Below the pieces are notes generated by a model. It was not told the origin of the DNA. It ran no database searches and saw only the letters and a list, made by a program, of their open reading frames with translations. From Henckelia pumila (lineage: Eukaryota > Streptophyta > Magnoliopsida > Lamiales > Gesneriaceae), in the NCBI RefSeq assembly GCF_033568475.1, contig NW_027331840.1, positions 372,001-436,000 of the forward strand: a stretch of DNA of 64,000 nt. Direction: 5' to 3'. Shown here in pieces: positions 8,430-29,546 of this stretch (its first letter is position 1; each line of letters begins with the position of its first letter). A program made the position numbers and the translations under genes.

Positions 8430-9295
8430 GTTTAAGCCTCACGAATTCCTCCTATATCAACATATTGATCCGGTTTTCACACAATCAAACCATTATATAT
8501 CGTTGCCCGAAAAATTACAACAAATTATTTCGATAAAAAATAAAGTTAACATGCTGTCAGCGAAAATCTTCACATAACATGCTAGCGTGTATAGATGTAT
8601 TCCAGAAAGGATTAGTGTAGACGGAAATCATGTATCAGTATAACTCTAGCAATGGCAAAAGCTTATCTCGAATGTCCCGTGATTAACATCAAATCCTCAA
8701 GTGAAATAAATATCATGCATTTAAATCCTCGCTTTACAAACCCAAATCAGAACATCAACACAACAAACTCACGCATGCAGAGACGTATGAAAATATCCAC
8801 GCTTTAAAAAAAATGGCAACTCAAACACTCGTCAAATGAATCATCTAAGTAAGAAAACTGAAATAATTTTTAATAACAAAGATTACCGCTAAAAATGATC
8901 CACAAATCTGAATGACTGTGTCAACTCAGCTCGCAACAGCTCAAATTCCTGCGTTGCTTCAACTATAAACTGTGATTCGAACAGCTAATTGAAATAAATA
9001 ATAAAATTGATTTTTGTGAAAGAATGGAGGGGGGACTAAAATTTAATTGCAAGAAATTCCAAAAAATATGAGGGAAAATGGGAGGAAATTAGGGCTTCGT
9101 TCGTGAGATCGTCCACATGGCCGCGTCGTTTTCTGCCGATTTGCAGAGAGAATTTGCCGATGTGGTGTACACCGTGGATTGAATAGTGGAGCTCGTGGAC
9201 TGATTAACGGCTGCGATTGGGTCACGTGTTATGCTGCGTGATTTTACAGGTCGGGGCAATCTCAGACCCGTGACAGAATTTGTAGTTGGATAAAG
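8430..9295 (-). promoter_or_regulatory. 5' leader and promoter region of the bZIP gene
   Basis: No protein gene is visible here. Reading the - strand, a likely acceptor (TTGATATAG before GAGGAATTC, at about 8451) stands before the bZIP start codon, and a likely donor (GCG|GTAATC) at about 8886, which suggests a 5' UTR intron of about 435 bases. The region around 9100-9230 is less AT-rich and carries CACGTG (about 9222-9227), a G-box, the motif this protein family binds; self-regulation is therefore possible but unproven. Confidence 0.4.
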
Positions 9296-9299
9296 AGGT

Positions 9300-9657
9300 A
9301 AAATTTCATCCAACCCCATGGGTTTTACTCTATGTGATAGGTGGAAGCATAATATTAGTCAAATTATGCGAGCCCCATATGATTGATGTGGGGCCCCCAT
9401 AATTTGAACCAATGAAAGAGTTTCATCTACCCCATGAAGTAATGCCCATGGGATAGGATCTAACCATCCGATACAGAGGGGAAATTCGAACCTACCCATG
9501 GGTTTTACCCCATGTGATAGGTGGAAGCATTTTATTGATTCAAATCATGTAGACCCCACATAATTAAGTGTGCCCCACATAATTTGAACTAATCAGTAGG
9601 TTGATTAGATTCTACCCTATGGGTATTACCCATGGGATAGGTGGAATCATTTTATTG
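9300..9657. mobile_element. Cluster of palindromic MITEs, left part
   Basis: At least two and a half related units lie in a row. Each begins with a word of the type CCTACCCCATGGGTTTTAC or CTACCCTATGGGTATTACC followed by GATAGGTGGAA, and ends with its inverted form. The first unit spans about 9308-9455, a second about 9490-9610, and a third starts at 9611 and is interrupted by the MULE; it resumes at 26914. The stretch CCGATACAGAGGGG near 9468 recurs as CCGATACGAAG near 27260. The units look like short foldback DNA transposons. Confidence 0.65.
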
Positions 9658-9666
9658 GTTCTTATC

Positions 9667-9793
9667 GGATGCGTCGATGCTGGCCTCAGGGCACTGCCCT
9701 GAGCCAGTCATCGACTGACACGTGGCGCTACTTTATAAATTTTTTTTTTAAATTTTCGTCCCTCTTTTGACTCACCACCCAACCATGGTTAAC
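9667..9793 (+). repeat. Left terminal inverted repeat of the MULE
   Basis: About 60 bases match the right end well (GGATGCGTCGATGCT, then a hairpin, then TCATCGACTGACACGTGGC). Similarity continues more weakly to the shared word CCAACCATGGTTA near 9779-9792. The hairpin has arms GGCCTCAGGG and CCCTGAGCC around the loop CACTG. Confidence 0.85.
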
Positions 9794-10035
9794 TTACACA
9801 TGGGTTTTTTATTTTGAAAATCATCAAAAAATCCCAAATATCTCATTTTGGAAAATCTACGCCCTACTCGCTCAAACCTTTTCTCTCTGAAACTTGAGAA
9901 CCCTAAAATTATTTTGAATCCCCAGTCTTGAGCTCTCCATATTAAGCCTTTCCAAGCAACAGCGACGTTCCTTCCGGTTAGTGCTTATGCAGCATTTGGT
10001 CCTTTTCGATTGAAGGTAAAAAAATTTCGATTTCA

Positions 10036-10276
10036 ATTTTTTTTTTGGAAGGAAGACGATGTGCTCGTACCTTTTGCTTTGACTGGGATGGGCTTTATAA
10101 CAATTTTTTTTTAAAGGAGGAAGATGTACGCTTACCTCTTTCTTTGAGACTAGGGTGGGCTTTATATCATTTTTTTTTGGGAGGAAGATGTACGCTAACC
10201 TTTTTCTTTTTTTTTTTTGGAAGGAAGAAGATGTACGTTTTACCTCTTTCTTCGACTAGGTGGGCTTTATATCATT
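10036..10276 (+). repeat. Degenerate tandem repeat in the leader of the small MULE gene
   Basis: Three to four copies of a unit of about 60-80 bases, each with a T-run, GGAAGGAAGA or GGAGGAAGATGTACG, CTTACCTCTTTC and GGGCTTTATATCATTTT. The copies differ in T-run length and small changes. The block lies upstream of the start codon and is probably within a 5' UTR intron; an open frame crossing it is judged to be chance. Confidence 0.7.
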
Positions 10277-10754
10277 TTCGTGTCATCTTAAATTTCTTCT
10301 TCTTTCAAAATTTTGATGTGCAGGGACAGTACTTGGTTTGTTCTTCAATCGAAAACAAATATAGTTGACATAACCCGGAGCCGAAACAGGTTGAAGTTAT
10401 GCACATGGAAAATTAAACTCAGGCCAAGTATTATATTTGGGATCAATTGTTTTTGAATTTAACATGAATCTGTGTTAATTGTCCACTAGATTTCATTGTA
10501 TTTGACCACTGGATTGATGTGAATATTGAAAAATCTTAGATTATATATGTGCATAATATCTCTAGAGGAATCATTGTATCAGTATTATATGGTCACATCT
10601 ATCTACAATAGTAAAGATCTTAGCTGAGATTTCATTTAGAGGAAGTCTAGAGTTCTTGTATTTCGTAGTAGTTGTTATGTATGGTGATTATGAGATTGAA
10701 ATTTCCTTTTTACAGGAGCACTCATCTATCTCACCAGGTTTTGATATTATTTAG

Positions 10755-11193
10755 ATGGTGAGTCACAGACAGTTAATTGATTTATTTTATTATAATATGA
10801 TTTTTTGAATATGGAATCTTGAATTTTGTTTAGGGAAAAGCCTACGTTGTCTTTGAAAGAAAGAATCCAGGTGTTTATGGATCTTGGGTAGAAACACACG
10901 CTGAAGTCAAAGATTACGAAAATCTTTTATACGAGAAGTTTTCTAGTAGGGCAGAGGCGATAAAAGCGTTTGAGAACTATGTGAAAAAACGTCCAACTAA
11001 TTCATTCACGACAAAGAGCAAGGAAAGTTCATGTGGTGCTTCTAGTTCACAACGAAATTCTCGTCAAGCAGAAAAAATTGTTGAATTGGAAGATGCTCTG
11101 TCAAATTTGCAAAATGATGTTTTGCAAATCATGAAAAAAATGGACGACATGAAACAAAAGTTAGAAGAGATGAGATTGAATGGCAGTGGTTAG
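10755..11193 (+). CDS. Small MULE gene: RNase H1 N-terminal (viroplasmin-like) domain plus coiled coil
   Basis: Two exons are proposed: 10755-10757 (only ATG, followed by the donor GTGAGT) and 10834-11193 (after the acceptor TTTAG), making 120 residues. Residues 2-50 (GKAYVVFERKNPGVYGSWVE, then FSSRAEAIKAFENYV) match the fold seen in caulimovirus viroplasmin and the N-terminal hybrid-binding domain of eukaryotic RNase H1, with the usual YVV, GVY-SW and A--AF positions. A serine-rich linker follows and then a coiled coil at about 80-117. There is no RNase H catalytic domain. The likely role is binding of RNA-DNA hybrid or double-stranded RNA and self-association. It lies inside the MULE, divergent to the transposase by position, so it may be a second element gene or a captured host fragment. 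The ATG-only exon is an inference; the second exon frame is clear. Confidence 0.7.
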
Positions 11194-11247
11194 TTTGTGC
11201 TAGAAACTGTGATGTAATGTAATTCTAGATCAATTAGTGTGATTGTA

Positions 11248-13908
11248 TGAAACAACCCTAACTCTATAATAAATAAATATGCGGAAAATTTTTTTTTTTT
11301 TTATACTACTAAATAAAATATGTACATATATGCCCATACATATATGCACAGAATAAAATATTTAAAATAAATACATGACTAAATAAATAAACAATTAAAT
11401 ACTTAAGTAAAATGCATTCTTTAAAATAAATAAATATCTGAGTCAGCCCTATAATTAAAAATATACTGCATAAATAAAATGAATAAAAAGTGTGCATGCA
11501 CTAAAAATATTTAATAAAATATTCAAAAACCTCAACCCTCGAAAATATTTAAAATGTATCATAAAACAACATGTATGGTGACTCAGAAGCTGTCACGGTC
11601 ACGGGGCCACTGCTACATGTCTGCTCATACGTCCTCGCCTCCGGTGGGTACAATGCCATCCTCAGCGTACTCACCTGCACCATACCAGTGTAGTGAGCCT
11701 AGAGGCCCAACATGCTAACATAGCAAGGGTTTAAAATAATTTAAATCAATTTAATACTAATACATACATATACATGAATGAGCATGCTTAAAAATTTCAT
11801 AACATAACTTACTTAAATAAACATAAATAACATAATACATAACATTATTGAGCAATTCATTTTCTAACATAGCATGGTTGTATCCGTAGTGTAACCTTAA
11901 ATCATACATTAAATACTGATCAGCGTGGAAACCTACGTACGTGGCCGGTGACGAATCACCTCTTAAATTGGCAGTAAACTGCCCTTCAATCATATGGGGA
12001 CAAGTCCCCCTTAAATTGTCACACTACTTCAACTTCCAACATAAAATATTTTTATTGCTCAACTTAAACATTAAATCATGCATAAAATATTATTTCATGA
12101 ATGCATGTACTTGAATAAAATGTGTGTCCTTCATATATATTTAATTTAATTTTTCTTACTAACATATAAATATTAAAATAACTTAAATGCATAAAAAAAT
12201 AATTAAATATATATTCAGGACACATGCATATTTTCTCATGGATGGTTCTGGACTGCTGGCTCTAATACTCAATCCCATTAACTTAAATCTGGTCCATTAA
12301 CATACTTAAGCCCAATATCTTAAACTTTAAGCCCAAATAATTATTCTAAGCCCAATTAAATTAATAAAGCCCATTAAAATACACTAAGCCCAATAACAAC
12401 TTAAACTGGCCCAATGGGCCCAAAAACCCAAAGACTGGCCCATTAACTTTTATGAGCCCAAAAGCCCATAAAATAAATGGACTAACTTAATTAAAATTTT
12501 AAAAGTCCAAATAAAATTATTTGGGAGTCCAAATAATTTTATTTTAATTTAATTGACTCAAAACCCATTAATTCATAAAATATTTTAAAAATAAAAAGAC
12601 TCGAGCCCGGCCCACCAAACCCGGACCCGGACCCACTTAAACCGACCCACTAACCTACTGACCCGACCCGGACCCCTCAGACCCGACCCGGACTACTCCT
12701 AACCCTAAAACCCGAACACCCCCTCTTCCCCTCCTTGGCCGCCGCGTGCAGCAGTCCTTTAGGGACTGCTGCCGCCTCACTCCGGCCACGATCGGCCGGA
12801 GCGCCGCCGGCAGGACCTTCCCAGGGTCCTGCCGGTTCGAACCATACCTTGGTTCGAGCCCCATGCACACTGCACGTCGAACCCGAAGCCTCAAATCCCG
12901 AAACCCTAGCCTGCGACCTCCATGAGCCCGACTGCACCCTCTTGCTTTCTGGGCTCTTTTGGCTTGATTCGACCGAGCCAATTGAGCCTAGGTTCACCCT
13001 AGACGCCCTAGAGACCCCAACCAGCAGTCATCCAAGCCATGGTTAGCCAAAAACGTGAGCATGCTTATGAAATCAAAGAACAATGCGCCTACAACCAACA
13101 TTCAAATCGATTTTCTGAAAAAGTCTTAATGATTTTCGATGCATACACAACACACACATTAATATAACTGATAGGCACGAAAAGTATAGAAGGAAATCAT
13201 GCCTTTCACCGTAGGTATTGATTTAACACGCACGTAGGACGTTTCCGGGACGACGGGGCGAACACACCTTCGAAGCTTTAAAAGATTTGAGCTATGGAAC
13301 CTCCTAGGCTTGAGGAAGAAGATGAAGATGGAGAATGGAGGCGGCTAAGGGGGTGAACGATCGGCTAAGGGGTTTGGGGTAGATTAGGTTTAGGTTTTTA
13401 GGTTAAATAGAATTTAATTAGGATAATAACTTAATTAGAATTATATTATACCATAAAACACTTATTTAAAAATCCCTAATAATAAAAATAATCTGATGGA
13501 AAAATTAAATCCCGAAATATTAGAGTAGGGAATTTTTAAAAATACCAAAAAGTCAATATTTTGGCTAATTTTGAATAAAAAAGGACTCCTAAAATTATAT
13601 AAAATTAAATACTTAAAATTTTGAGATAATAAAACTCAAAATAATATTTTAAGGCTCTAAAAAGGCTCATAAAATAATTTGGCTAGAAAGTTGTCATCTC
13701 GTCCGTCCACGGTCCCGCCTACGCGATCAAATAATTAAAATACTACAAATCATAAAAATCACTAATTATGGGTTAAATGCTTAAAAATAAATTAAATCAT
13801 GCACAAATAATTCACATAATTATTTAACCCATAAATCTAAAATTTAGAATAATTAAATATCCTAATTATGCAGGCGGATTTACGTAATTAAAAATACCGG
13901 GTGTTACA
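11248..13908 (-). repeat. 3' LTR of the Gypsy element
   Basis: The 2661-bp copy begins TGAAACAACCC and ends GGGTGTTACA on the + strand. It contains AT-rich parts, a region dense in GCCCA words and a GC-rich block near 12600-13050 that produces overlapping chance frames. It is nearly identical to the copy at 18764-21422. Confidence 0.95.
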
Positions 13909-13953
13909 ATTCTCCCCCCCTTAAATTGAATTTCGTCCTCGAAATTAAAGTAC

Positions 13954-15162
13954 TTACCCGAACAACTCCGGGTAACGAGTCCTCATGTCAGCCTCGGTCT
14001 CCCAAGTAGCTTCCTCCTCCGAGTGATTCAGCCACTGGACTCTGACCATCGGTATGACCCGCGTCCTAAGCCTCCGCTCCTCTCTAGCCAAGATCCGCAC
14101 TGGTCTCTCCTCGTAAACAAGATCTGGTGGCAACTGTAAGGGCTCGAAATCCAACACATGCGACGGGTTGGAGACATATCTCCGAAGCATGGATACATGG
14201 AAAACGTTGTGCACTGCCGCTAGCCCTGGAGGTAGAGCTAAACGATAGGCCAACGTGCCAACTCGCTCCAAGATCTCGAATGGCCCTATATACCTCGGAT
14301 TAAGCTTGCCTCTTCGGCCAAAACGCACTACTCCCTTCATAGGTGACACCTTCAGAAATACGTGATCACCTACAGCAAACTCCAAATCTCGTCGTCTGGC
14401 ATCTGCATAACTCTTCTGCCGACTCTGAGCAGTCCTCATCCTATCTCGAATCTGAGTCACAATGTCAGCTGACTGCTGCACAATCTCAGGACCCAACAAA
14501 ATCCTCTCACCAACCTCATCCCAATGCACCGGAGATCTGCATCTCCTCCCATAAAGTGCTGCATATGGAGCCATACCTATAGACGACTGAAAGCTGTTGT
14601 TATAGGTAAACTCCACTAATGGCAGTCTAGTCTCCCAAGATCCTCGAAAATCAATGACACAAGCTCTCAGAAGATCCTCGAGAACCTGGATCACTCTCTC
14701 GGACTGGCCATCTGTCTGGGGATGAAATGCTGTACTGAACAAAAGCCTAGTCCCCAAAGCTGTGTGCAGACTCTTCCAAAATGCTGAGGTGAATCTCGGA
14801 TCTCTGTCTGACACAATAGACACTGGTATGCCATGCAGTCTAACAATCTCTCTGATGTAAAGCTCTGCATACTGTGTCAAAGTGTAGTTAATCCTTACCG
14901 GCAAGAAATGAGCTGACTTGGTGAGTCTATCCACAATCACCCAAATCGCTGTACACCCTCTGGTACTCCTCGGTAAGCCAACTACAAAGTCCATCGTAAT
15001 ATTCTCCCATTTCCATTCCGGAATAGGGAGAGGTCTAAGAAGTCCCGCTGGACGCTGATGCTCTGCTTTGACTTGCTGACAAGTCAAGCACTCTGACACC
15101 ACTCTCCCGATGTCACTCTTCATCCCGGGCCACCAATACAATAACTGTAAGTCTCGGTACAT
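13954..15162 (-). CDS. Gypsy integrase region with chromodomain-like C-terminus
   Basis: A long open frame of the retrotransposon. It shows the integrase core ([49 protein letters not shown]) with the D, D, E pattern, the GPF-like module [17 protein letters not shown] and, at the end, a chromodomain-like stretch ([16 protein letters not shown]). The latter places it among the chromoviruses and suggests targeting to heterochromatin. Confidence 0.9.
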
Positions 15163-17389
15163 CTTCGTACTTCCGGGGTGAATGGAGTACGGAGATGCAT
15201 GAGCCTCTGCTAGAAATCTCGGCTCTCAACTGATCAACGTTCGGTACCCACATCCTCCCACGGTATTGAACGATGCCATCCTCCACTGTATACAAGAGAC
15301 TACCTCTGGCCTCATCTCTCTGTCTCCATCGCTGTAGCTCCTCATCAGTGGACTGTCCCTCTCTAATCCGATCTCTCAAAACTGGCTGCACCGTCAATAC
15401 TGACAAGCTCGGTGCATGACCGCTCGGATAGCACTCCAACCCAAACCTCTGAATCTCGGTCTGTAGTGGTAACTGCACAGTCAAACATGTTACCACTGAT
15501 GACTTCCGACTCAAAGCATCGGCCACTACATTAGCTTTACCCGGATGGTAGCTAATGTCACAATCATAGTCCTTCACCAACTCCAACCATCTGCGCTGTC
15601 TCATGTTCAACTCCTTCTGTGTGAAGAAGTACTTGAGACTCTTGTGATCGGTGAAAATCTTGCACTTCTCGCCGTAAAGATAGTGCCTCCAGATTTTCAA
15701 AGCGAAGACCACTGCTGCCAACTCCAAGTCATGCGTCGGGTAGTTCTGCTCATGAATCTTCAACTGTCTCGACGCATACGCAATAGCCTTACCACACTGC
15801 ATAAGCACTGCGCCTAAACCAAGTTTAGACGCATCGGTGTAAACCACTAACTCCTCGTGTGGTACTGTCATCGCTAACACTGGTGCTGTAGTGAGTGCTT
15901 CCTTCAGCTGATCGAAGCTCCTCTGACAGTCTGAACTCCATATAAACTTCGCATTCTTCTTGGTCAAGGAAGTCAAGGGTACTGCAATAGAGGAAAAACC
16001 CTTGATGAACTTCCTGTAGTATCCGGCCAAACCCAAGAAACTGCGAATCTCTGAAGCATTCTTCGGAATGCCCCAATTCTGCACTGCCTCTACCTTAGAC
16101 TGATCGACTGCAACTCCATCTCTCGAAATAATGTGGCCAAGAAATGCCACCTGCTCAAGCCAAAACTCGCACTTGCTGAACTTGGCATACAACCGATGCT
16201 CCCTCAAAGTCTGCAATGCGGTCTGAAGGTGCTGTCTATGCTCCTCGATGCTCCTAGAATAGATCAAAATATCATCAATAAAGACTATGATGAACTGATC
16301 CAGATATGGCTGAAAGACTCGGTTCATGAGATCCATGAAAACCGCTGGAGCATTGGTCAACCCAAATGGCATCACCAAGAACTCGTAATGCCCATATCGT
16401 GTCCGGAAAGCAGTCTTGGACACATCTGCATCCCTAACACGCAACTGATGGTAACCAGATCGCAGATCGATCTTGGAGAACACTGAAGCTCCCTGCAACT
16501 GGTCAAACAAGTCCTCTATCCTCGGCAGTGGATACTTGTTCTTCACTGTGACTCTGTTAAGCTCTCGGTAATCGATGCACAGTCTCATACTGCCATCCTT
16601 CTTCTTCACAAACAACACCGGAGCTCCCCAAGGAGAAAAGCTAGGTCGAACGAAGCCTTTCTCTAACAACTCCTGTATCTGCTCCTTCAACTCTTTCATC
16701 TCGGTAGGAGCAAGCCTGTACGGTGCCTTAGAGATAGGCACGGTGTCTGGCACTAAGTCAATACTGAACTCCACCTCTCTCACTGGTGGAATTCCTGCCA
16801 CATCCTCCGGAAAGACATCCGGAAAGTCACGAACCACCTCTAACTCTGATAATGATCTGCTAGATGGCTCTGAAGTCGTGACAATACTCGCTAGAAACCC
16901 CTGGCAACCCCATCTCAACAACTTCCTCGCCTGAATATAGGATATCACCTGAGGAATATCACTGCTCTGAGATGCATAAAAAGTGAACGGGTCGCCCCCT
17001 GTAGGTCTCACTGACACTGATCTCCGACGAAAATCAATCGAAGCTCCATTGACTGTCAACCAGTCCATACCCAAAATAAGATCAAAACCACTCAAAGGCA
17101 AGACTACTACATCTGCTCGAATGGAGTGTCCCTGCAGCTCTAACTCCAGTCCTCGAATAACCTTCGAGGTAGACATAATCTGCCCTGACGGCATAGTAAC
17201 ATCATACCCGCTGTCACTACTCTCAGGTGTGATGCCTACCCGTCTGATAAACTCCAGGGAGATAAACGAATGCGTAGCTCCTGAATCTAGCAACGCAAAC
17301 GTGGAGTTGCCTCCAACTAGAATTCTCCCTGCACGCAGAAAAATTCCCAACAGATTCATACCACTTCTAATTTTTCCCAAACGAGTCAC
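15113..17389 (-). CDS. Gypsy protease, reverse transcriptase and RNase H region
   Basis: A long open frame of the retrotransposon. The aspartic protease shows [13 protein letters not shown]; the reverse transcriptase shows [20 protein letters not shown] and the catalytic FIDDILIYS; RNase H begins near [17 protein letters not shown] and continues to [16 protein letters not shown]. The order protease, reverse transcriptase, RNase H, integrase defines it as Gypsy rather than Copia. Confidence 0.93.
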
Positions 17390-17726
17390 TACAAGTTCTT
17401 AATTCTAATCACAAGTAAAACATGCTTCCTATTCTAACATGCAGTTAAATGACCCAAATAACAAGAATTTCAAATTAAATAATAAATCTTTAACCAAAGG
17501 AGAATTTATTAAAATACTAGGGATAGGATGTACCGGTGATCAAGGAGGTGTCTGGATCGACCTCCTCAGCCTGCATCACGAACACCCTACCAGCGGTGTT
17601 CTTCTTCCTGGGGCAGTTAGCAATCTGATGCCCCGGCTCTCTGCAGTGGAAGCAAACTCCTGCTCCCAATAGGCAAGGTCCCGAATGCATCTTCTGGCAC
17701 TTCGGGCAAATGGATGAGCTATGGCA

Positions 17727-18593
17727 TTAGGGGCCCCGCCCCTGCTGCTGCTGCGGCCTCTGCTGCTGTGGCCTCTGCTGCTGATTCGGGCCCTTAGCCG
17801 GCCCTGTATACTGCTTCTTCGCAGGTGGCTGCGAAGATGGTCGCTGATACCCTGTCTGCACAAACTGCCTCTTACCCTGCTGCTCTCTCTGGATCGCTCT
17901 CCGACCCTCCTCAGAACGCAAAGCCCTGCTGACTGCCGACTCATATGTAAACACGTCTGCCATGCGCACGTCATGCCTGATCTCAGCCTTCAGGCCCTCA
18001 ACAAACTGTCGCAGCTTCTCCTGCGGACTATCAGCAATCATGGGCACAAAACGACAGCCCCTCTCAAACTGGCTTATGTACTCCACCACAGATCTGTCCC
18101 CCTGACGGAGACTCATGAACTCTCGGATCATGCGACTGCGCACATCCTCAGTGAAATATTTGGCGTAGAAGATACGCCTGAACTCAGCCCATGTCAGAGT
18201 AGGTAGATGGACTCCTCGTACTGCACCCTCCCACCATGAGGCTGCATCGCCTCGCATCATGTATGTAGCACAGCTCACCCTGTCGGCGTCTGTGATCCCC
18301 ATATAGTCAAAGATGGACTCAAGTGAGCGAATCCATCCCTCAGCCACCAACGGATCGGTGGTCCCCAAGAACTCCTTAGGCCCCTTCTTCTGGAACCTCT
18401 CAGCCACGTCCTCCTCATGGGATAGTCTGGGACGTGCAGCCTGCTGCTCCAACAGAGCAGTAATCCCCGCCATCATCGTAGCACTGGCCTGCTCCAATGC
18501 TGTCATAGGGTTCTGCGGAGGTGGCGGTGGAGGTGGAGGTGGAGGTCCCCCACGTCTATTCACTGGTCTGGGAGGCATTCTGCACCACCACAT
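17727..18593 (-). CDS. Gypsy gag region
   Basis: A frame of 288 codons next to the 5' LTR. It contains the retrotransposon gag core (AASWWEGAVRG, TWAEFRRIFYAKYF, MSLRQGDRSVVEYISQFERG) followed by a glutamine-rich basic tail. A CCHC zinc-knuckle type stretch lies just downstream toward the pol region. Confidence 0.9.
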   Translation of the reverse strand: MWWCRMPPRPVNRRGGPPPPPPPPPPQNPMTALEQASATMMAGITALLEQQAARPRLSHEEDVAERFQKKGPKEFLGTTDPLVAEGWIRSLESIFDYMGITDADRVSCATYMMRGDAASWWEGAVRGVHLPTLTWAEFRRIFYAKYFTEDVRSRMIREFMSLRQGDRSVVEYISQFERGCRFVPMIADSPQEKLRQFVEGLKAEIRHDVRMADVFTYESAVSRALRSEEGRRAIQREQQGKRQFVQTGYQRPSSQPPAKKQYTGPAKGPNQQQRPQQQRPQQQQGRGP

Positions 18594-18763
18594 ATTTATT
18601 TACGTAAATCGCCATGCATAACTAAGTGTTTAAAATTAATGCTAACTTAAATTCTAGAAATTAAATCATGCTATAAACATTTAAAACTTACAGACCGGTA
18701 GCGTGGATTTCTGAGCTCGCATAGCAGTAATGACCCCTCCGAGGACCGGGCTCTGATACCAAC

Positions 18764-21422
18764 TGAAACAACCCTAACTCTATAATAAATAAATATGCGG
18801 AAAATTTTTTTTTTTTTTATACTACTAAATAAAATATGTACATATATGCCCATACATATATGCACAGAATAAAATATTTAAAATAAATACATGACTAAAT
18901 AAATAAACAATTAAATACTTAAGTAAAATGCATTCTTTAAAATAAATAAATATCTGAGTCAGCCCTATAATTAAAAATATACTGCATAAATAAAATGAAT
19001 AAAAAGTGTGCATGCACTAAAAATATTTAATAAAATATTCAAAAACCTCAACCCTCGAAAATATTTAAAATGTATCATAAAACAACATGTATGGTGACTC
19101 AGAAGCTGTCACGGTCACGGGGCCACTGCTACATGTCTGCTCATACGTCCTCGCCTCCGGTGGGTACAATGTCATCCTCAGCGTACTCACCTGCACCATA
19201 CCAGTGTAGTGAGCCTAGAGGCCCAACATGCTAACATAGCAAGGGTTTAAAATAATTTAAATCAATTTAATACTAATACATACATATACATGAATGAGCA
19301 TGCTTAAAAATTTCATAACATAACTTACTTAAATAAACATAAATAACATAATACATAACATTATTGAGCAATTCATTTTCTAACATAGCATGGTTGTATC
19401 CGTAGTGTAACCTTAAATCATACATTAAATACTGATCAGCGTGGAAACCTACGTACGTGGCCGTGACGAATCACCTCTTAAATTGGCAGTAAACTGCCCT
19501 TCAATCATATGGGGACAAGTCCCCCTTAAATTGTCACACTACTTCAACTTCCAACATAAAATATTTTTATTGCTCAACTTAAACATTAAATCATGCATAA
19601 AATATTATTTCATGAATGCATGTACTTGAATAAAATGTGTGTCCTTCATATATATTTAATTTAATTTTTCTTACTAACATATAAATATTAAAATAACTTA
19701 AATGCATAAAAAAATAATTAAATATATATTCAGGACACATGCATATTTTCTCATGGATGGTTCTGGACTGCTGGCTCTAATACTCAATCCCATTAACTTA
19801 AATCTGGTCCATTAACATACTTAAGCCCAATATCTTAAACTTTAAGCCCAAATAATTATTCTAAGCCCAATTAAATTAATAAAGCCCATTAAAATACACT
19901 AAGCCCAATAACAACTTAAACTGGCCCAATGGGCCCAAAAACCCAAAGACTGGCCCATTAACTTTTATGAGCCCAAAAGCCCATAAAATAAATGGACTAA
20001 CTTAATTAAAATTTTAAAAGTCCAAATAAAATTATTTGGGAGTCCAAATAATTTTATTTTAATTTAATTGACTCAAAACCCATTAATTCATAAAATATTT
20101 TAAAAATAAAAAGACTCGAGCCCGGCCCACCAAACCCGGACCCGGACCCACTTAAACCGACCCACTAACCTACTGACCCGACCCGGACCCCTCAGACCCG
20201 ACCCGGACTACTCCTAACCCTAAAACCCGAACACCCCCTCTTCCCCTCCTTGGCCGCCGCGTGCAGCAGTCCTTTAGGGACTGCTGCCGCCTCACTCCGG
20301 CCACGATCGGCCGGAGCGCCGCCGGCAGGACCTTCCCAGGGTCCTGCCGGTTCGAACCATACCTTGGTTCGAGCCCCATGCACACTGCACGTCGAACCCG
20401 AAGCCTCAAATCCCGAAACCCTAGCCTGCGACCTCCATGAGCCCGACTGCACCCTCTTGCTTTCTGGGCTCTTTTGGCTTGATTCGACCGAGCCAATTGA
20501 GCCTAGGTTCACCCTAGACGCCCTAGAGACCCCAACCAGCAGTCATCCAAGCCATGGTTAGCCAAAAACGTGAGCATGCTTATGAAATCAAAGAACAATG
20601 CGCCTACAACCAACATTCAAATCGATTTTCTGAAAAAGTCTTAATGATTTTCGATGCATACACAACACACACATTAATATAACTGATAGGCACGAAAAGT
20701 ATAGAAGGAAATCATGCCTTTCACCGTAGGTATTGATTTAACACGCACGTAGGACGTTTCCGGGACGACGGGGCGAACACACCTTCGAAGCTTTAAAAGA
20801 TTTGAGCTATGGAACCTCCTAGGCTTGAGGAAGAAGATGAAGATGGAGAATGGAGGCGGCTAAGGGGGTGAACGATCGGCTAAGGGGTTTGGGGTAGATT
20901 AGGTTTAGGTTTTTAGGTTAAATAGAATTTAATTAGGATAATAACTTAATTAGAATTATATTATACCATAAAACACTTATTTAAAAATCCCTAATAATAA
21001 AAATAATCTGATGGAAAAATTAAATCCCGAAATATTAGAGTAGGGAATTTTAAAAATACCAAAAAGTCAATATTTTGGCTAATTTTGAATAAAAAAGGAC
21101 TCCTAAAATTATATAAAATTAAATACTTAAAATTTTGAGATAATAAAACTCAAAATAATATTTTAAGGCTCTAAAAAGGCTCATAAAATAATTTGGCTAG
21201 AAAGTTGTCATCTCGTCCGTCCACGGTCCCGCCTACGCGATCAAATAATTAAAATACTACAAATCATAAAAATCACTAATTATGGGTTAAATGCTTAAAA
21301 ATAAATTAAATCATGCACAAATAATTCACATAATTATTTAACCCATAAATCTAAAATTTAGAATAATTAAATATCCTAATTATGCAGGCGGATTTACGTA
21401 ATTAAAAATACCGGGTGTTACA
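18764..21422 (-). repeat. 5' LTR of the Gypsy element
   Basis: A 2659-bp copy of the LTR, the promoter-bearing one for the - strand element. Its inner edge is followed by a two-base gap and the tRNA-Met primer site at 18750-18761. It is nearly identical to the other LTR. Confidence 0.95.
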
Positions 21423-21678
21423 TTGTATTTTGAAAATATTTCGTGATCGTAAACGTTGTTATCATTGTTCTGTTCTATGGATGAATTAAAATAGACTGTC
21501 CCTTTATGTCAATTTTAAGTCCCTTTATGTCAATTTTAAGTCGAAAGATGTTTAATATATATAAGATGTTTTTGACCCAAAAGTTAAAGTCGATGCTTGA
21601 AGTTTAAACTTGTTGTATATAAAATTTAACCACACTTAAAAGGCCAAATAAACGTTTTCATTGTTCCGTTTTATGGTT

Positions 21679-21832
21679 TAAGAATTTAGCTTTTAAATAG
21701 CATGAACTTTTAGGTTAATTTTAAGTCAAAAAACTTTTAATATATAGAAGATATATGTAAGAATTTAGCTTTTAAATAGCATGAACTTTTAGGTTAATTT
21801 TAAGTCAAAAAACTTTTAATATATAGAAGATG
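21679..21832 (+). repeat. Tandem duplication of about 76 bases inside the MULE
   Basis: The stretch beginning TAAGAATTTAGCTTTTAAAT occurs twice in a row with almost no change. Just before it, at about 21497-21541, a 22-base unit (GTCCCTTTATGTCAATTTTA) is also doubled. Both lie downstream of the small MULE gene, in non-coding DNA. Confidence 0.8.
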
Positions 21833-21965
21833 TTTTTGATCCGAACATTAAAGTCGATGCTTGAAGTTTGAACTTGTTAATAAAATTTTAACCATAATCA
21901 AAAGACCCAATTAAATCATTAAAATCATTTAAACCCTTAAAATTGATGCTTCCTGCGCTGCTCAT

Positions 21966-22112
21966 ATGCGCTTCTGCGCTGCTGGTTAGCGCAGAAGCGC
22001 ATGCCCTTTGCGCGTCTGCGTTAACAGGGTCGCAGACGCGCAAGAATGCAGTGCACTCATAAGAGTGCACTGCAATTTTGCGCAGCTGCGCGTCTTGGAC
22101 CCGCAGCTGCGC
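21966..22112. repeat. Array of four different perfect hairpins
   Basis: Four stem-loops follow one another in 147 bases. Stem 1 is ATGCGCTTCTGCGCT (21966-21980) with its complement at 21988-22002. Stem 2 is TTGCGCGTCTGCG (22008-22020) with 22031-22043. Stem 3 is TGCAGTGCACTC (22047-22058) with 22063-22074 and a four-base loop. Stem 4 is GCGCAGCTGCG (22080-22090) with 22102-22112. The stems are GC-rich in otherwise AT-rich DNA of the MULE. No function is known to me. Confidence 0.85.
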
Positions 22113-22844
22113 CCCGAAATCCCATTCCAGATTTTTGTTGCGCCTTGAATCTGTGTTAATATCATTTCTATCCTTCTAAATTGATCAAAACATCAAAACA
22201 CTTCAAAATGACCATATTATGAGCGAGTATAGGGGATTTTGGACCAAGGGGTAACTCGTTTCATTCCAAAAATTGAAGCAATACAAGATAGTCAAGAATA
22301 CAAGCTATGTAACTTGCCAGAAACAATACGAGATTCAACCATTTGAAGTCTAAGAACCCTCCAAATTCCATAAAAGAAAGCAAAAAAATGCCAGAACATA
22401 AAGTAAAATTCATAACATATACTGAAAAATGTTGTGCTAGTAGTTATAATTCAATCAAGCAAAAGCATCCTCCTCCCCTTCAACTTTGTTTCACTGAACT
22501 TTACTATCATAAGCTTTTTACCTCGTCACCGCCAGAGATCTCAATAACAATAGCATACACATGTTCTTCCTTTATCTACTGATGGCTTCAATTTCAGTGC
22601 ACCAAAACAAGAAACAAGAACTCAATATAAACAACTGACAAACAATAACAACTACCGCAACTTAAACAACTATCAAAAAATGCAAACGATCTACCTCAAA
22701 AAGTTAAGACAACTCATCTGTTATATTGAGCTATCTAGTGTTATCAGCATCATTACCCTGAAAAAATTAAGAAAGATGAAAAATATCATTTTGTAACAAG
22801 TTATGCATCTACCAAATTTTCTTACTTGGAATGTTTGAGGATTT
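22113..22844. other. Non-coding MULE interior between the two genes
   Basis: No gene is recognisable. It probably contains the 3' untranslated part of the transposase gene, which reads on the - strand. Some short open frames occur by chance. Confidence 0.5.
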
Positions 22845-23150
22845 TCAAACTGATATGAGAATATATTCATTTGACCACGTGGATACAAGTTTGTATTGCT
22901 TTCCTACAACCAAATACACAAATAAATAAGATTCCATAGAACTACTGTATTCATTAACTAAGAGTAGAAAAATTATAACAACCAAATGATGTGGTTCACT
23001 TTCAAATTGAGATCCGATTGATGCAGGTTCAAATGGATGAAATGGTTGGACAACAGTAGGATTTTGATGTGGGAGATAAATTGATTCTTGGCTATTCGGG
23101 CATTGAGACTGATGAGAGCTTTGTCTTTTGGTTTTTGTTTTTTTTTGCAT

Positions 23151-25412
23151 CTATACACATGAAAAGGAAAAAATAAAATTTATTGGAAAAATAACAATAC
23201 TAGTTTGAGAAATAAACTTACTTGATCGATCAGCTTTCCCTTTTCCTTTCTTTTTCTTACTTTTATCATTCCAATGGCGTTGGATATTTTTATTCGTAAT
23301 TTCTCTCGACTTCACTTGAGGAGGATTACACACAAGCATGTCATCCAATAGGTTATTGTCTTCATGAACCCAGTTGTCACAAATTTTTGGGTCTTCCAAC
23401 TTAAGTTTTTCAAACAAATCATCTATTTGTTCCCTCGCATCATTAAGAATTTCTGTCAACTTGTTTCTTGCAATATCATGAACTTTACATCTCATGCTAA
23501 GAGCATGCGTCGATATCATTATATGATTCACAAAGACCATCTCAGATTCACAAACACTTCCAATTCTAACTCCACTTCCATCCAAAACAAAATTTTGATG
23601 AATTCTGTTTCTGCACTTTTTCATCCAGCATTCTTTCAAGTATGGTTTGGGCAGATAATTCAGATTCAAAAAACTAAAGATCATCAGAATATGCTTGCAA
23701 AGTATTCCCATTTTTTCAAATTTTTTACAGGTGCATTTTACTTCAAGTATCTCCTTGTTGAATAACACCTGTCTAACCCTTGAATTCTCATCATGAGATT
23801 TTACTTTGAACTCCATAGAGAAAACACTGAAATCTGAGGGCATCTGAATGAACCGCATATTCAAAGAATTGATTGGTTCTAATTCAAATAGCTTGTACAC
23901 GGTGTGAGTATAAAAATCAGCTGCAAACTTCAACAATGGATTATTTTTCAGCATCATTGGTGTTGTTGTATGATGACACCGTGTATCCTCAGCCTTCTCT
24001 TTATCACGCCACCCTTTTATGATTTTTTCATAATTTAGCACAAAATCATACAACGAAATGGCATTGTTTCCTAATCTCTTCAACACTGCATTTGTCACCT
24101 CACTTCTAGAAGTTGCTAAAAGCCCAAAACTAAACATGTGATTACTGAATGCAGTAGCCCATTTGTATCTCAATGCATACATATTATTTAGCCATTTATG
24201 ACCATTCAAATTGTATTCCTCTATCATAATCCTCCACGTGTCTTCAAATTCTTCTTCAGATTCGCAATGACTCATGCATTTATTCCACAATCTTTTAAAT
24301 CTTGTATCACCATTCAAACTCCCTAAGTGTGACGGAGCATTTTGGTTAATATGCCACTGACATAACCGATGGTGTGAATACGGAAATACCGTCTCAATTG
24401 CATTCATCATGGCTTGACATTGGTCAGTGAAAATTGTTTCAGGCTGTTTTCCATTCATAGACTCAAGAAAAGTTCTGAACAACCATTCAAATGAACTCTC
24501 AGTTTCATCCGACATGAATGCCAAACCAAACATTACATTTTGCTTATGATGATTAATTCCAACGAAAGGAGTACATATCAAATTGTAACGATTGGTTTGA
24601 TAAGTCGTGTCAACTGACATAACATCACCGAAGTACTCATAATCAACTAAACATCTCGAATCCCTAAAAAAAAAATTCATGACCCTATTGTCATCATCTA
24701 GTTGAACGTTCCAATAAAAATGCGACTCCTTATTTGCCTTGTTTATAAAATGATGAAGTAAGGCAGAAGCATCCCCATTCTCAACTTTCGTATGCTTTTT
24801 TATACGACCAATGTGATCGTATACATCTTTTCTAATAAAGCTCAAATTATGTGACCATTGTGCATCATTTTCCATATAAGCTACAGCATTAGCCACAGAA
24901 ATCCCAGCATTTACCATTGCTTCTAAAGTGGATTTTTGAGCATGAGAAATATTCCGTGATGATCTTAACAAATGTCTTTGATCAACCGCAACCATGTCAT
25001 GATTATGCTCAACGACAAACCTACCAACCTTCCATTCCCCACCCATTTGCCTACTAATTTTGAGCTTCGCTTTACATTTTGTTCTACTAGTCGGCTTCAA
25101 GTAAATAGGAATTTTTTCAAAAGAGTGTTTTTCATCTTTACTACCTTCACATGAACACTCAAACTCTTTAGATTGTAAATCAGTAGTGCCAGGAAAGTAG
25201 CATTGATCACCTTTTTTGACGCTGAACCTTTTAGCATGCGCATAATTGCAATAAAGTAAATACGCATCTTCAACGCTTTTGACTACTTGACCAACAAGTA
25301 GTTTACTCTCCAATTGATCTACAATAGAGCTGGTAGATAATACCTCAATGTCTTCAGGAATCGAATATTCTGAATTTACAACTTCAACCTCTTCAATGTT
25401 GTCTCCCATCAA
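23151..25412 (-). CDS. MULE transposase with FAR1, MULE and SWIM domains
   Basis: A single open frame of 753 codons that would cut and rejoin the element ends. Residues about 45-140 form a FAR1-type zinc DNA-binding domain (ECSCEG ... EHNHD). The MULE catalytic domain spans roughly 260-400, with the first Asp in VMSVDTTYQ (D268) and the second in ETIFTDQCQAM (D330); the third acidic residue is not assigned. A SWIM zinc finger lies at 560-574 (CTCKKFEKMGILCKH). The tail is lysine-rich. A donor (GTAAGT) sits at about 23221, and an open stretch at 22845-23150 (for example PHQNPTVVQPFHPFEP) looks like a further C-terminal exon, although the simplest splice does not keep that frame, so the real C-terminus is uncertain. 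It resembles the Jittery/FAR1-FHY3 branch of Mutator transposases. No break is visible in the main frame. Confidence 0.92.
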   Translation of the reverse strand: MMGDNIEEVEVVNSEYSIPEDIEVLSTSSIVDQLESKLLVGQVVKSVEDAYLLYCNYAHAKRFSVKKGDQCYFPGTTDLQSKEFECSCEGSKDEKHSFEKIPIYLKPTSRTKCKAKLKISRQMGGEWKVGRFVVEHNHDMVAVDQRHLLRSSRNISHAQKSTLEAMVNAGISVANAVAYMENDAQWSHNLSFIRKDVYDHIGRIKKHTKVENGDASALLHHFINKANKESHFYWNVQLDDDNRVMNFFFRDSRCLVDYEYFGDVMSVDTTYQTNRYNLICTPFVGINHHKQNVMFGLAFMSDETESSFEWLFRTFLESMNGKQPETIFTDQCQAMMNAIETVFPYSHHRLCQWHINQNAPSHLGSLNGDTRFKRLWNKCMSHCESEEEFEDTWRIMIEEYNLNGHKWLNNMYALRYKWATAFSNHMFSFGLLATSRSEVTNAVLKRLGNNAISLYDFVLNYEKIIKGWRDKEKAEDTRCHHTTTPMMLKNNPLLKFAADFYTHTVYKLFELEPINSLNMRFIQMPSDFSVFSMEFKVKSHDENSRVRQVLFNKEILEVKCTCKKFEKMGILCKHILMIFSFLNLNYLPKPYLKECWMKKCRNRIHQNFVLDGSGVRIGSVCESEMVFVNHIMISTHALSMRCKVHDIARNKLTEILNDAREQIDDLFEKLKLEDPKICDNWVHEDNNLLDDMLVCNPPQVKSREITNKNIQRHWNDKSKKKKGKGKADRSSKFISQTSIVIFPINFIFSFSCV

Positions 25413-26767
25413 GTCTATAATTAAAAGAAAAAAGATTAAAATGTAAATAAATCTAATAATGATTAAAAGTAAAGAAAGAGAGATAATTTGACCAAAAATC
25501 GAGGTTCTAAGAATTTACTGTATTTGAAATAAAAAGTGTCATAATTACCTTTTCTCCAAACTTAATAAGTCAAGTGTATGTATCAAGTCTAATAGTTGTA
25601 AAGAAACTGTTAGATAGATCAAGTCAGGGGAGGAAAGATTTTTAAAATGAGGCAAACTTGTTGGGCTACTGTTCGATGGGTGCAGAAAATCTTTCTACTT
25701 CTTGTTTATGAATATGTTGCTAATGAGAGCCTTGACAAGCTTTTGCTCAGTAAATACTTATTGTTAACGCGTTTTGTATCCTCAATTGGATATATGATTA
25801 TCAATGTATGTTCAAAGAATGAAGTTTAACAAATTATACGAACATGTTGTGGAACCAAGCTTATATATGAACCATAATAATCCTAATTAAAAAAATCACC
25901 ATTCTTCAAGATTATGTATCCTCAATTGGATATATGATTATCAATGTATTAATCATATCTTTGAACCAAATCAGAGAACAAAATCACCATTCTTCAAGAT
26001 TAATAGTTGAACAGAGGCTCTGGAATGAATGAGGGCAATTCAATACAAATTTATTCGCATTAACGTCACTTTCAAATTCAAAATATACTTCCATATCAAA
26101 TGATTATTACTGAAAGAGGGCAAAAGAATTTTATATACCATATACATAAATTAGTTCATACCGTGATGGAGGGGGATCACTATGTAGCAGCGTGAGCGGA
26201 TCGATTAATATTGTTCCCTTCTTGTTTCTCCAAATCTGAAATCCCTCAAGCGGGCAATGATTTTTGAAAATCTGGGAACACAACAAACAAGCTTTCAAAT
26301 TTTGGGATCTGACCATTACTTTTAGGATAATCTAACAACATTAAATAAGGAATCTCCCATTAGAAATCAAGAAAACAAGATTTTTTTAACTTCTGCACTT
26401 CAATCCAAAGTCTCCAATTGAAATATTTTCTACACCAACTCACTATCCCTCACGCCCATTGCCCAAAAAAATCAACTTCAGACTTCAGAAATTTTACTTC
26501 CACAATCCATAGAAAATACAATATTTTAACATACATACCTTGAGGATTGCAAACCAGAGGATCTTCAAACAAAATATCCCGTCGAAATGCACTTTCGATG
26601 AGTTTGGGCTCGAACTCGGCGATGCACAGGCTATCAAAATAAATTTGCAGAATCTCGTCTTCACCAAGGTTGTAATCTTCGTAAGATTACGAGAGAGGAG
26701 AAAGCCGCCGAACTTGTAAGATTACAAGAGGAAAAGTCCCGCGGATTTCAGATTATAATTTCAAAAG
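25413..26767 (-). promoter_or_regulatory. Leader and promoter side of the MULE transposase
   Basis: No protein gene is seen. A word of about 33 bases (from ATCCTCAATTGGATATATGA) occurs twice, at about 25777-25809 and 25918-25950, and AAAATCACCATTCTTCAAGA also occurs twice (about 25890 and 25980), so there was a small local duplication. Transcription of the transposase must start here. Confidence 0.45.
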
Positions 26768-26904
26768 TAACCATGGTTGGAGATCTCGCTCCAATTAATC
26801 ATAATTCCGATTTTTATGTTTTAAAAAAATATTTTAAAATAACTGCCACGTGTCAGTCGATGATAGGCTGAGGGCACTACCCTCAGCCTAGCATCGACGC
26901 ATCC
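26768..26904 (-). repeat. Right terminal inverted repeat of the MULE
   Basis: Mirror of the left end. It holds the hairpin GGCTGAGGG / CCCTCAGCC and ends CATCGACGCATCC at 26904. The inner limit is set by the word GTAACCATGGTTGG (26767-26780), which also occurs in inverted form at the left end. Confidence 0.85.
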
Positions 26905-26913
26905 GTTCTTATC

Positions 26914-27270
26914 ATAAGGGTCTCACTCAATCATGTGATGCTCAAATGATATTAACCAATTAAATTATTCCACTTGTCCCATGGGGGTAATACTGGTTTT
27001 GTCTATGCTACCCCATTCGGGTAGTGCCCGAATGGAGATCCAACGGTCCATGTTTTTTTGGACTTGATATGATCTCATTTAAAATGAGATCAAATCAAAT
27101 CCAAAAAAATATGGGTCATTGGATGCAGCACATGGGCAGTGCCCATGTGCTAGCATAGACAAAGCCGGGTAATACTCATGGGATATGATGAAATTTTCCT
27201 AATTAGTGAGTGTCATCTACCCCATGGGGTAATACTTATGGGGGTAGGATCGACCCTCCCGATACGAAGT
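26914..27270. mobile_element. Cluster of palindromic MITEs, right part
   Basis: Continuation of the MITE unit interrupted by the MULE, together with the end of an outer unit (CTACCCCATGGGGTAATAC near 27218). The outer stretch CCCTCCCGATACGAAG resembles the left flank near 9468. A different 172-bp MITE is inserted at 26995. Confidence 0.6.
26995..27166. mobile_element. 172-bp Mutator-type MITE
   Basis: The ends are GGTTTTGTCTATGCTA and, inverted, GGCTTTGTCTATGCTA. The flanks share GGGTAATACT (26985-26994 and 27167-27176), consistent with a 9- or 10-bp target duplication. Both ends carry a hairpin (CCATTCGGG / CCCGAATGG on the left, AGCACATGGG / CCCATGTGCT on the right), and the centre (ATGATCTCATTTAAAATGAG) is itself nearly palindromic. 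Spacing and the GGGCACTGCCC core agree with the ends of the nearby MULE, so it may be mobilised by the same transposase family. Confidence 0.85.
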
Positions 27271-29546
27271 TTGGAGTTTGTACGCACTAATTATTAGTTG
27301 ATGAATTTTTTGTTTAAAAAATATTAATTGATTATATAAAAATATATGTAACTCAAACAATATATATACACATCTAACACGAACGAAGCCCAAATTTCTT
27401 GTTTGCGACTTTGCACGATCCATATTCAGATCTTGTTGCTCAAGATTGTATAATCCTTGTTAAAATATATCATCGTGTACTTTTGGTTTCAAAACGATTA
27501 CGAATCAAGTTATCTACTATCCATGCTCTTATTCGGAGGCTATTTTTAGGCGTGGTTTAGTGAAATATATAAATCATTCTTCCACTTTAATTTCTTATAT
27601 AAATTCTCCGGTCTAATAAAAGTGTCTTGTTTTATTTAAAAAAAAGACATCAATTTAATAGTCAATATAATATAATAATTACAATACTATCACTTATAGG
27701 TTGCGTTTACTTTATGAGATGTGATTATATGTGAATAAATCATACTAGGATTATTAAAATGATTTTGAAGAATGTTGAATAATGATGGATACACAGTAAC
27801 ATGTTTACTTTGAGTTATTAATTTTGGGATTGAAATAATGATTAATGGACGAATTACAGTTTTACCCTCCACATATGATAAATAATATTATGTTTAATTT
27901 TGTATTCATATAATTTGGATTGAATTATTGTTGAATATTATAAATTATTATTGATTCAAATGTGATTCATTTTCACTTATTGAAATTATTGAGTATAAAA
28001 TTATGTATTTTTTAAAAATAGATAAAATTGATAAAATGATTCATAAAAAATATGAGAAATTGGGAGGAAAACAAAAAAATTAAAAAGGGTATATTAGGAT
28101 TTATATAGAATTTTTTTCATAAATATTGTGAAGGATATGTTATACCTCATGTAATTAAGAATGAAAAATCCCATGAAATCAATGTATAATTACGAGAATG
28201 AGAAATCCTATGAAATCAATGTATAATTACGGACCTTGAGATTTGAAGAAAAATGATTTTTTTTGTAAGTAAACAATGGATTAGATTGAATTAATAAACT
28301 CATAATATATATAATGATATATATAATGATATGTCCTAATATTTCGAAGATAAAAAACAAAAACAAAAAAACTTAGCCGAATATACATATCGTATCTTCT
28401 TTAATGAGTACATAACATATTATACCGTCAGCTTAATCATTTATTCGAAATTGTGTTATGATAAAAATGTGAAGTGATAAATGTATGTTTTAACAGTAAT
28501 TCTATCAAATCATGTGGTGTATATTGGATTGGTTCATCATATATAAAAAAATCAAATTATATCTAATATTTATACGAAAGATATATGACAAGATTGAAGA
28601 TACATTTACAATTTGATTATTTTCCCTTTTCTTTTTTCCACTTAGTTTTATTGAAACATATATAATATATATGTATGTATATATATATGTATGTATATAT
28701 ATATTTAGCATTTTATAATATGATAGGTATCGAGCTAAGTTAATTATATTATTACATATATAAGCATAGCAACAACCGATTTCATTTGAAATTGGATTTC
28801 CACCGAATTCCATCAAGTCGCATGCGGCATGCTATCAAAGACACACTGACAATTTTTTCATATGTAAATATGCTCCTATTATTATTATACTTTATAAACA
28901 TGAAACTCGTTAATTTCTTAATTCCGTAAACTCATTCATTTGTTTCCTTTTGGATTTCCCTTGGAATTCGGACGGCATGAGCTCCATATATAAACCAATT
29001 TTCATGTGATTTTTACCCCTTTCATGCATCATCATACTACTTTTGAACTCAAAAAATGGCCACTAATTAAATATCCTCGAAACAGATCATAATCACAAGT
29101 CACAACATTCACAATAACTTTGATCTGACAATGATTTTCCGTTGCGTGTATCGATTCCCCGTCAATCCAACCAATCGAATTTCCCTCGGTTGCATATATT
29201 GATCTCGGTCTCAAACCTTAACAATCTCTCTCTTTTTCCTCTGGATTCAATTCAGTTTCTTTATAGATTGATAAATCATAAATAAATGATAAATCTGTTG
29301 CAAAAATGATCGTTAAATGAGAGAGACGTGCTTCGGTAGAATCGAGAATATGCATCAATGCATGTATATATATTTTTGAATATGTATATTGTAAGACGGT
29401 TTCATGGATATTTATCGATTAGATGAGTCAATTCTATTTATATTTACAATAAAACGTATTATTATTTTGATAAAAAAATATTTTATCATGGATGACCCAA
29501 ATAGGAAATTCTTATCGTAAAATTGACCGTTAGATCATCTCACATG

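Follow-up and report, generated by a model that had tools for sequence, protein, structure and literature searches.

Ends that are recognised as folded DNA, with the shape outweighing the sequence of the arms, are known from the IS200/IS605 elements, from integron attC sites and from the 3' hairpin of Helitrons. These systems use HUH or tyrosine enzymes. Eukaryotic cut-and-paste transposases, to our knowledge, are generally thought to recognise the linear sequence of the ends. In the genome studied here, the nearest element with coding capacity encodes a MULE transposase, and a 9-bp target duplication arises on insertion. Because the MULE domain and the 9-bp TSD were found instead of a HUH enzyme without target duplication, any likeness to IS200/605 lies at most in the mode of action and not in membership.

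Closer in kind are the long-TIR MULEs including maize Mu, which share the MULE transposase domain, the long TIR and the 9-bp TSD. According to the accessible part of PMC3310237, the bound motif of the maize Mu TIRs comprises about 32 bp and is a linear sequence, whereas the subterminal hairpin reported here varies and yet stays paired. Muta1 of Aedes aegypti is likewise a MULE with a short palindromic TIR motif and TSDs of 8-9 bp, but its 10-bp imperfect palindrome is situated at the very terminus and covarying arms are not mentioned in the accessible text of PMC5225508. Foldback-type MULEs and MuTAnT have self-complementary ends and non-autonomous copies of the 200-bp class; as far as excerpts of PMC4486113 tell, one TIR folds onto the other over the entire element, while here the ends fold singly and many MITEs carry unlike arms at their two ends. 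Finally, matched multi-base changes of arms are also seen in hairpins kept by template switching. These were described for RNA genes in the accessible part of PMC8794818, whereas our hairpins lie in transposon ends, and the resident copies show no excess of matched changes.

The first-pass annotation knew of no such ends in Mutator elements, and we found no description in open papers either, subscription papers and repeat databases lying outside the search. Such a description was absent from the accessible parts of PMC3310237, PMC3169594, PMC5225508, PMC4486113, PMC12550479, PMC9569675 and PMC6446971. A literature search with literal motifs returned none on transposon ends by title among the matches listed.

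Hairpins at four transposon ends in the window

The window, i.e. the whole stretch of 64,000 nucleotides (C86:372001-436000), was analysed together with its host genome (885 Mb, 133 contigs), which the FAR1-type MULE marks as probably that of a plant. It contains a MULE and a MITE whose features are compiled in Table 1.

Table 1. Coordinates of the MULE, the MITE and their hairpins (window positions)
Feature	Position	Strand	Description
FAR1-type MULE	9667..26904	.	termini GGATGCGTCGATGCT, TSD, inverted repeat, transposase domains
MULE left outer stem	9673..9715	+	GTCGATG (9673-9679) pairs with CATCGAC (9709-9715)
MULE left hairpin	9682..9705	+	GGCCTCAGGG (9682-9691)-CACTG-CCCTGAGCC (9697-9705), one-base bulge
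MULE transposase frame	23151..25514	-	787 aa, stop to stop; FAR1, MULE and SWIM domains
MULE right outer stem	26856..26898	-	GTCGATG / CATCGAC (26856-26862 with 26892-26898)
MULE right hairpin	26864..26890	-	11 perfect pairs, TAGGCTGAGGG-TAGTG-CCCTCAGCCTA, read outside-in
Mutator-like MITE, 172 bp	26995..27166	+	TSD GGGTAATACT, 10 bp
MITE left hairpin	27013..27035	+	CCATTCGGG-TAGTG-CCCGAATGG
MITE right hairpin	27127..27151	-	AGCACATGGG-CACTG-CCCATGTGCT, read outside-in

The MULE is flanked on both sides by the 9-bp TSD GTTCTTATC, and its TIRs form an end-to-end inverted repeat of 82% over 87 nt, i.e. a long TIR. As expected of Mutator, the element encodes the MULE transposase domain PF10551 (E 9e-31) with FAR1 and SWIM alongside. 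The TSDs of 9 bp in the MULE, 10 bp in the MITE and mostly 9 bp elsewhere are within the 8-10 bp of Mutator elements. A phmmer search of the transposase against the sequences of solved structures in the PDB gave no match at E 0.01.

The first-pass annotation had proposed a stem-loop in both ends of the MULE and of the MITE, and all four were found in place. Folding of the four 60-base ends as single-stranded DNA yielded z = -5.0, -6.1, -2.9 and -4.6, with 0 of 200 shuffles folding as well as the real end in each case. The MULE stems were longer than annotated due to a second, outer stem at both ends. As a general feature the outer stem was rejected, as the best match was 4.8 of 9 compared with 4.3 after shuffling (98 ends); it is strong in the MULE. 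The MITE is self-complementary end to end at about 78%, as judged by the minus-strand rows of a similarity search, and the hairpin arms of its two ends are unlike. From the TSD length and the common box and core (see below) only, we would guess that the MITEs may be moved by enzymes of the FAR1-MULE group.

The MULE is interrupted by an LTR retrotransposon that spans at least 11248-21342 and whose LTR stretches are 99-100% identical over the three 300-nt stretches compared. In what appears to be the same locus on C131 (305186-312246) the MULE ends are 7.06 kb apart, thus this copy is without the insert. Both observations make the insertion look recent. Upstream of the insert and within the MULE, a 119-codon frame on the plus strand (10834-11193) has a Pfam hit to Cauli_VI (RNase H1 N-terminal domain) with E 2e-10. 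The nest is flanked by another motif in six or more diverged copies (window 9311, 9427, 9493, 9625, 26975 and 27217). It reads roughly ACCCCATGGG-TNNTA-C(C/T)CATGGGAT, again with five bases separating the G and C runs, and the MITE target GGGTAATACT falls inside one copy.

A common plan of ends throughout the genome

Of the 26 rows that a similarity search retrieved with the MULE end, three were reverse matches on the same palindrome; the search with the MITE gave at least 95 rows, from 40 scored of 315 candidates. The ends follow one plan: a six-base terminus, the box GTC[G/T]ATGCT, a variable arm of 6-9 nt in most ends, the core GGG-YANTG-CCC, the complementary arm and the inner TIR. In box and core the sequence itself is preserved. 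In the arms, like in the folded-end systems, it is the pairing that is conserved and not the letters. The loop side GGG-NANTG-CCC, which the first-pass annotation had described in the four window hairpins, recurs genome-wide behind the box. The pattern GTCGATGCT (or GTCTATGCT) followed by 3-14 bases and GGGNANTGCCC occurred at 78 and 161 places, respectively, while the reversed-pattern controls gave 0.

Only ends with an intact box and GGG...CCC core, not all 239 places, entered the arm analyses. Places were picked for variety of the 5' arm with the 3' arm still unseen, and were drawn from the 78 and from the first 100 of the 161 listed. Also included were both ends of one MITE copy and ten further copies and, later, known partner ends and flanks. 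The first set, from 93 flanked loci and 52 short loci, had 103 distinct ends with box and core; the later set, with a shorter key and later loci added, had 101. The 103 ends fell into 22 clusters. Their arms include ACCCGCA/TGCGGGT, ACCCACA/TGTGGGT, ACCCCACCC/GGGTGGGGT, ACCCCATTC/GAATGGGG, AGCACAT/ATGTGCT, GGCTTCA/TGAAGCC, ACCCCAA/TTGGGGT and AGGCTGA/TCAGCCT. Later loci added ACCTCAACC/GGTTGAGGT and, within the 172-bp MITE family, ACCCTATTC/GAATAGGG. Ten different fully paired 7-bp arms were present with a mean mutual difference of 4.4 of 7 pairs.

A perfect 9-bp TSD was found in 11 of 25 end-pair rows when end shifts of up to 2 were allowed; some of these rows pair ends of different elements and some are without flank. 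Further TSDs were CCCGAAAAG, CCACTAGAT, GTTGAGAAG and TTGATCGCA, and none was seen for element C3:26242. A homology search of the genome with the transposase gave at least 60 matching rows, with 57 of 1101 candidates scored. One relative frame is free of stops (C3:193869079-193871340, 81%). It sits in an element (C3:193868330-193874437) which has CCCGAAAAG on both flanks and the end arms GGCTCAAGGG and GGCTCAAGGC facing CCCTGAGCC. Thus the hairpin is present in a second MULE that bears a transposase.

We then compared the two ends of six elements from five families. The identity between ends was 0.87-1.00 for the outer box, 0.82-0.91 for the core and 0.58-0.91 for the inner TIR. For the arms, the raw values were 0.16-0.42 in the MITEs of four families and about 0.6 in the MULE. 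Unlike arms at the two ends were seen in the window MITE, L072/L093, L103, L091, L116/L117 and C3:33545, like arms in L119/L120, C3:26242, L077 and the second MULE; in L077 one 3' arm no longer pairs.

The bare core pattern occurs at 2642 places in the whole genome compared with 631 for its reversed version. The strings GGGGAGTGCCC and GGGGACTGCCC account for many of the 100 places listed; they often lie a few kb or some 100 bases from one another and apparently belong to other repeat families.

Covariation of the arms and decay of resident copies

Pairing of the arms was examined in 60 ends, one per distinct 5' arm, in which 4.53 of 7 positions pair. Redealing the 3' arms among these ends gave a mean of 2.48 and a maximum of 3.05, and 0 of 2000 redealings reached the observed value (z 11.8). 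With the later ends (63 arms) the values were 4.65 compared with 2.49 after redealing (0 of 5000). In a slide control, a shift of the partner by 1 to 4 positions lowered the pairing from 0.66 to 0.18-0.40.

The first-pass annotation had proposed to test the covariation against a phylogenetic null. This was done with our own script in the manner of R-scape, in which Fitch changes were scattered over a FastTree tree, each column independently. The summed G of 675 was above all 300 simulations on either tree, the maxima being 454 with the tree of the whole alignment and 402 with a tree built without the arms. Pairs 4, 5 and 6 individually exceeded all 300 simulations with both trees. Pairs 7, 9 and 10 were reached in 14, 19 and 9 of 300 (1, 4 and 1 with the second tree), and for pairs 8, 11, 12 and 13 G was not above the tree null in the ungapped register. 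The values of pair 8 and beyond were lowered by the one-base bulge in the MULE left arms in combination with the ungapped count. Neither of the outcomes named beforehand as speaking against covariation, i.e. most arms unpaired or paired changes at chance level, occurred. The covariation of the arms is real and statistically strong in this MULE lineage. Redealing and tree null both support the covariation proposed in the annotation, which had taken it to suggest selection on the folded form.

In 9 of the 10 clusters with at least four members the consensus arms are fully paired, with a single bulge in some of them. The tenth, ACTCCATTG, deviates by a single mismatch and a single wobble pair. 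Poorly pairing ends do exist, e.g. the cluster ACCCAACCC with 5 of 9. For the 13 clusters with at least two members, 91 of 100 positions pair compared with 59.4 (maximum 76) after arm swap with the same gapped fit. For all 22 clusters it was 141 pairing positions compared with 86.8 (maximum 106).

Resident copies gave a different picture from the consensus arms. In 39 MITE copies with 773 cells, 674 were unchanged, 95 were changed on one side, 3 on both sides with pairing and 1 on both sides without pairing; L035, a second copy of the window locus (1 of 40), and 46 gapped cells were left out. The one-sided changes are not all independent events because variants common to subfamilies are included. 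About 3.4 doubles are expected under independence, thus there is no visible re-matching of the arms after insertion. Two of the three paired doubles were G-C to A-T, which is what two deaminations would give, and one was A-T to G-C. Matched changes within the 172-bp MITE family were seen in L137 and C3:87464.

On terminal branches of the tree, changes breaking a pair outnumbered those restoring one by 73 to 9 (88 to 16 with the second tree), while internal branches had 27 to 27 (17 to 25). This contrast is predicted by selection on source copies, and re-matching tied to transposition would give the same. The MULE ends had 14 one-sided cells, 4 with both sides changed and paired and 1 with both sides changed and unpaired, after omission of duplicate rows and of the right-end rows L015, L016 and L030. 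The four paired doubles are two neighbouring left-arm pairs in L022 and L025, which belong to one lineage, and the bulge was kept. This argues against copying of the whole arm, which would not leave the bulge.

What keeps the arms paired

Base pairing that is kept while the letters change would point to folded DNA in end recognition or to a copying process that rewrites the arm at each move. We lean slightly towards the view that selection during mobilisation maintains the self-complementarity of this subterminal stretch. Mobilisation, that is binding of the transposase or bringing the ends together, would need a self-complementary subterminal segment, be it as duplex or as extruded hairpin or cruciform. 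The arms may drift via single changes or template switching, and copies with mismatched arms would no longer give rise to new ones. We infer selection at the stage of mobilisation from the paired consensuses of the families as opposed to the decaying copies. The data suggest that the folded shape matters for jumping; that the transposase meets the folded form itself would be a guess from sequence.

The foremost alternative, arm rewriting, holds that template switching or hairpin-primed repair copying after excision renews an arm from its partner with each move and that the pairing is functionless. Template switching can make and maintain hairpins, as reported in the accessible part of PMC8794818. 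It would also account for arms that are often perfect yet very different between families and for the isolated matched changes in single MITE copies. When linked to transposition, it predicts much of what selection predicts. Such a link would be required, since paired doubles in resident copies are not above chance. Moreover, adjacent pairs of the MULE left arm change without loss of its bulge. Loop inversion was also considered as a sign of template switching and discarded. With the GTCG box, the loop is TANTG in 63 of the 78 places by a count by eye, and a genome search with the mirror loop CANTA gave 3 places. With the GTCT box the result was less clear, with TANTG in 19 of the first 100 of the 161 places listed, likewise counted by eye, and 8 places found with CANTA. 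All these places are copies and not independent events. It therefore appears that the hairpin is directional, at least in families with the GTCG box. Yet the argument from loop inversion is weak because switching within a strand keeps the loop, according to the same part of PMC8794818, and the contrast is smaller with the GTCT box. On balance we regard arm rewriting without function as rather unlikely.

Improbable in our opinion is a duplex site for a transposase dimer, in which the palindrome represents two half-sites that follow the changing specificity of the transposase in each family. The core GGGCANTGCCC, which is palindromic around a free centre and common to several families, would fit such a site, and binding of transposases to MULE TIRs is on record in the accessible part of PMC3310237. 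However, four MITE families have unlike arms (0.16-0.42) at two ends that are presumably served by one enzyme; the MULE arm identity of about 0.6 is less telling.

Selection on RNA, i.e. local end hairpins with unlike arms in read-through transcripts that compete with long TIR-TIR dsRNA and so weaken silencing by siRNA, is very improbable: fold-back of TIR transcripts has been linked to MULE silencing (accessible part of PMC6446971) and MITE ends often have unlike arms, but in several elements the two ends have like arms and G.T, as a mark of one RNA strand, was not in excess of A.C (42 to 37 in MITE copies, 40 to 45 in 87 distinct arms), so that no single RNA strand is favoured, with transcription from both sides still compatible. 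Rfam gave no match in window positions 9000-28000.

Returning to selection at mobilisation, a more specific version is that a folded mark, be it hairpin or cruciform, is recognised by a DDE-type MULE transposase and that the arms provide shape only, with unlike hairpin classes at the ends serving as an end code; we consider this doubtful. The unlike classes at the two ends of many MITEs might be a structural end code that favors pairing of unlike ends, which is a lead only. With arm classes set by simple text rules, 41 distinct arm/loop combinations had ACCC-type arms, 36 of them with G as loop centre, and 21 had GGC-type arms, 13 of them with C; 12 combinations fit neither type.

The conserved plan is a handle for finding such ends in other plants. 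Among the places listed, hairpin ends are tandem or nested within 600 bases at C3:129339908-129340479 and C3:134995936-134996506, as if such MITEs had repeatedly inserted into one another.
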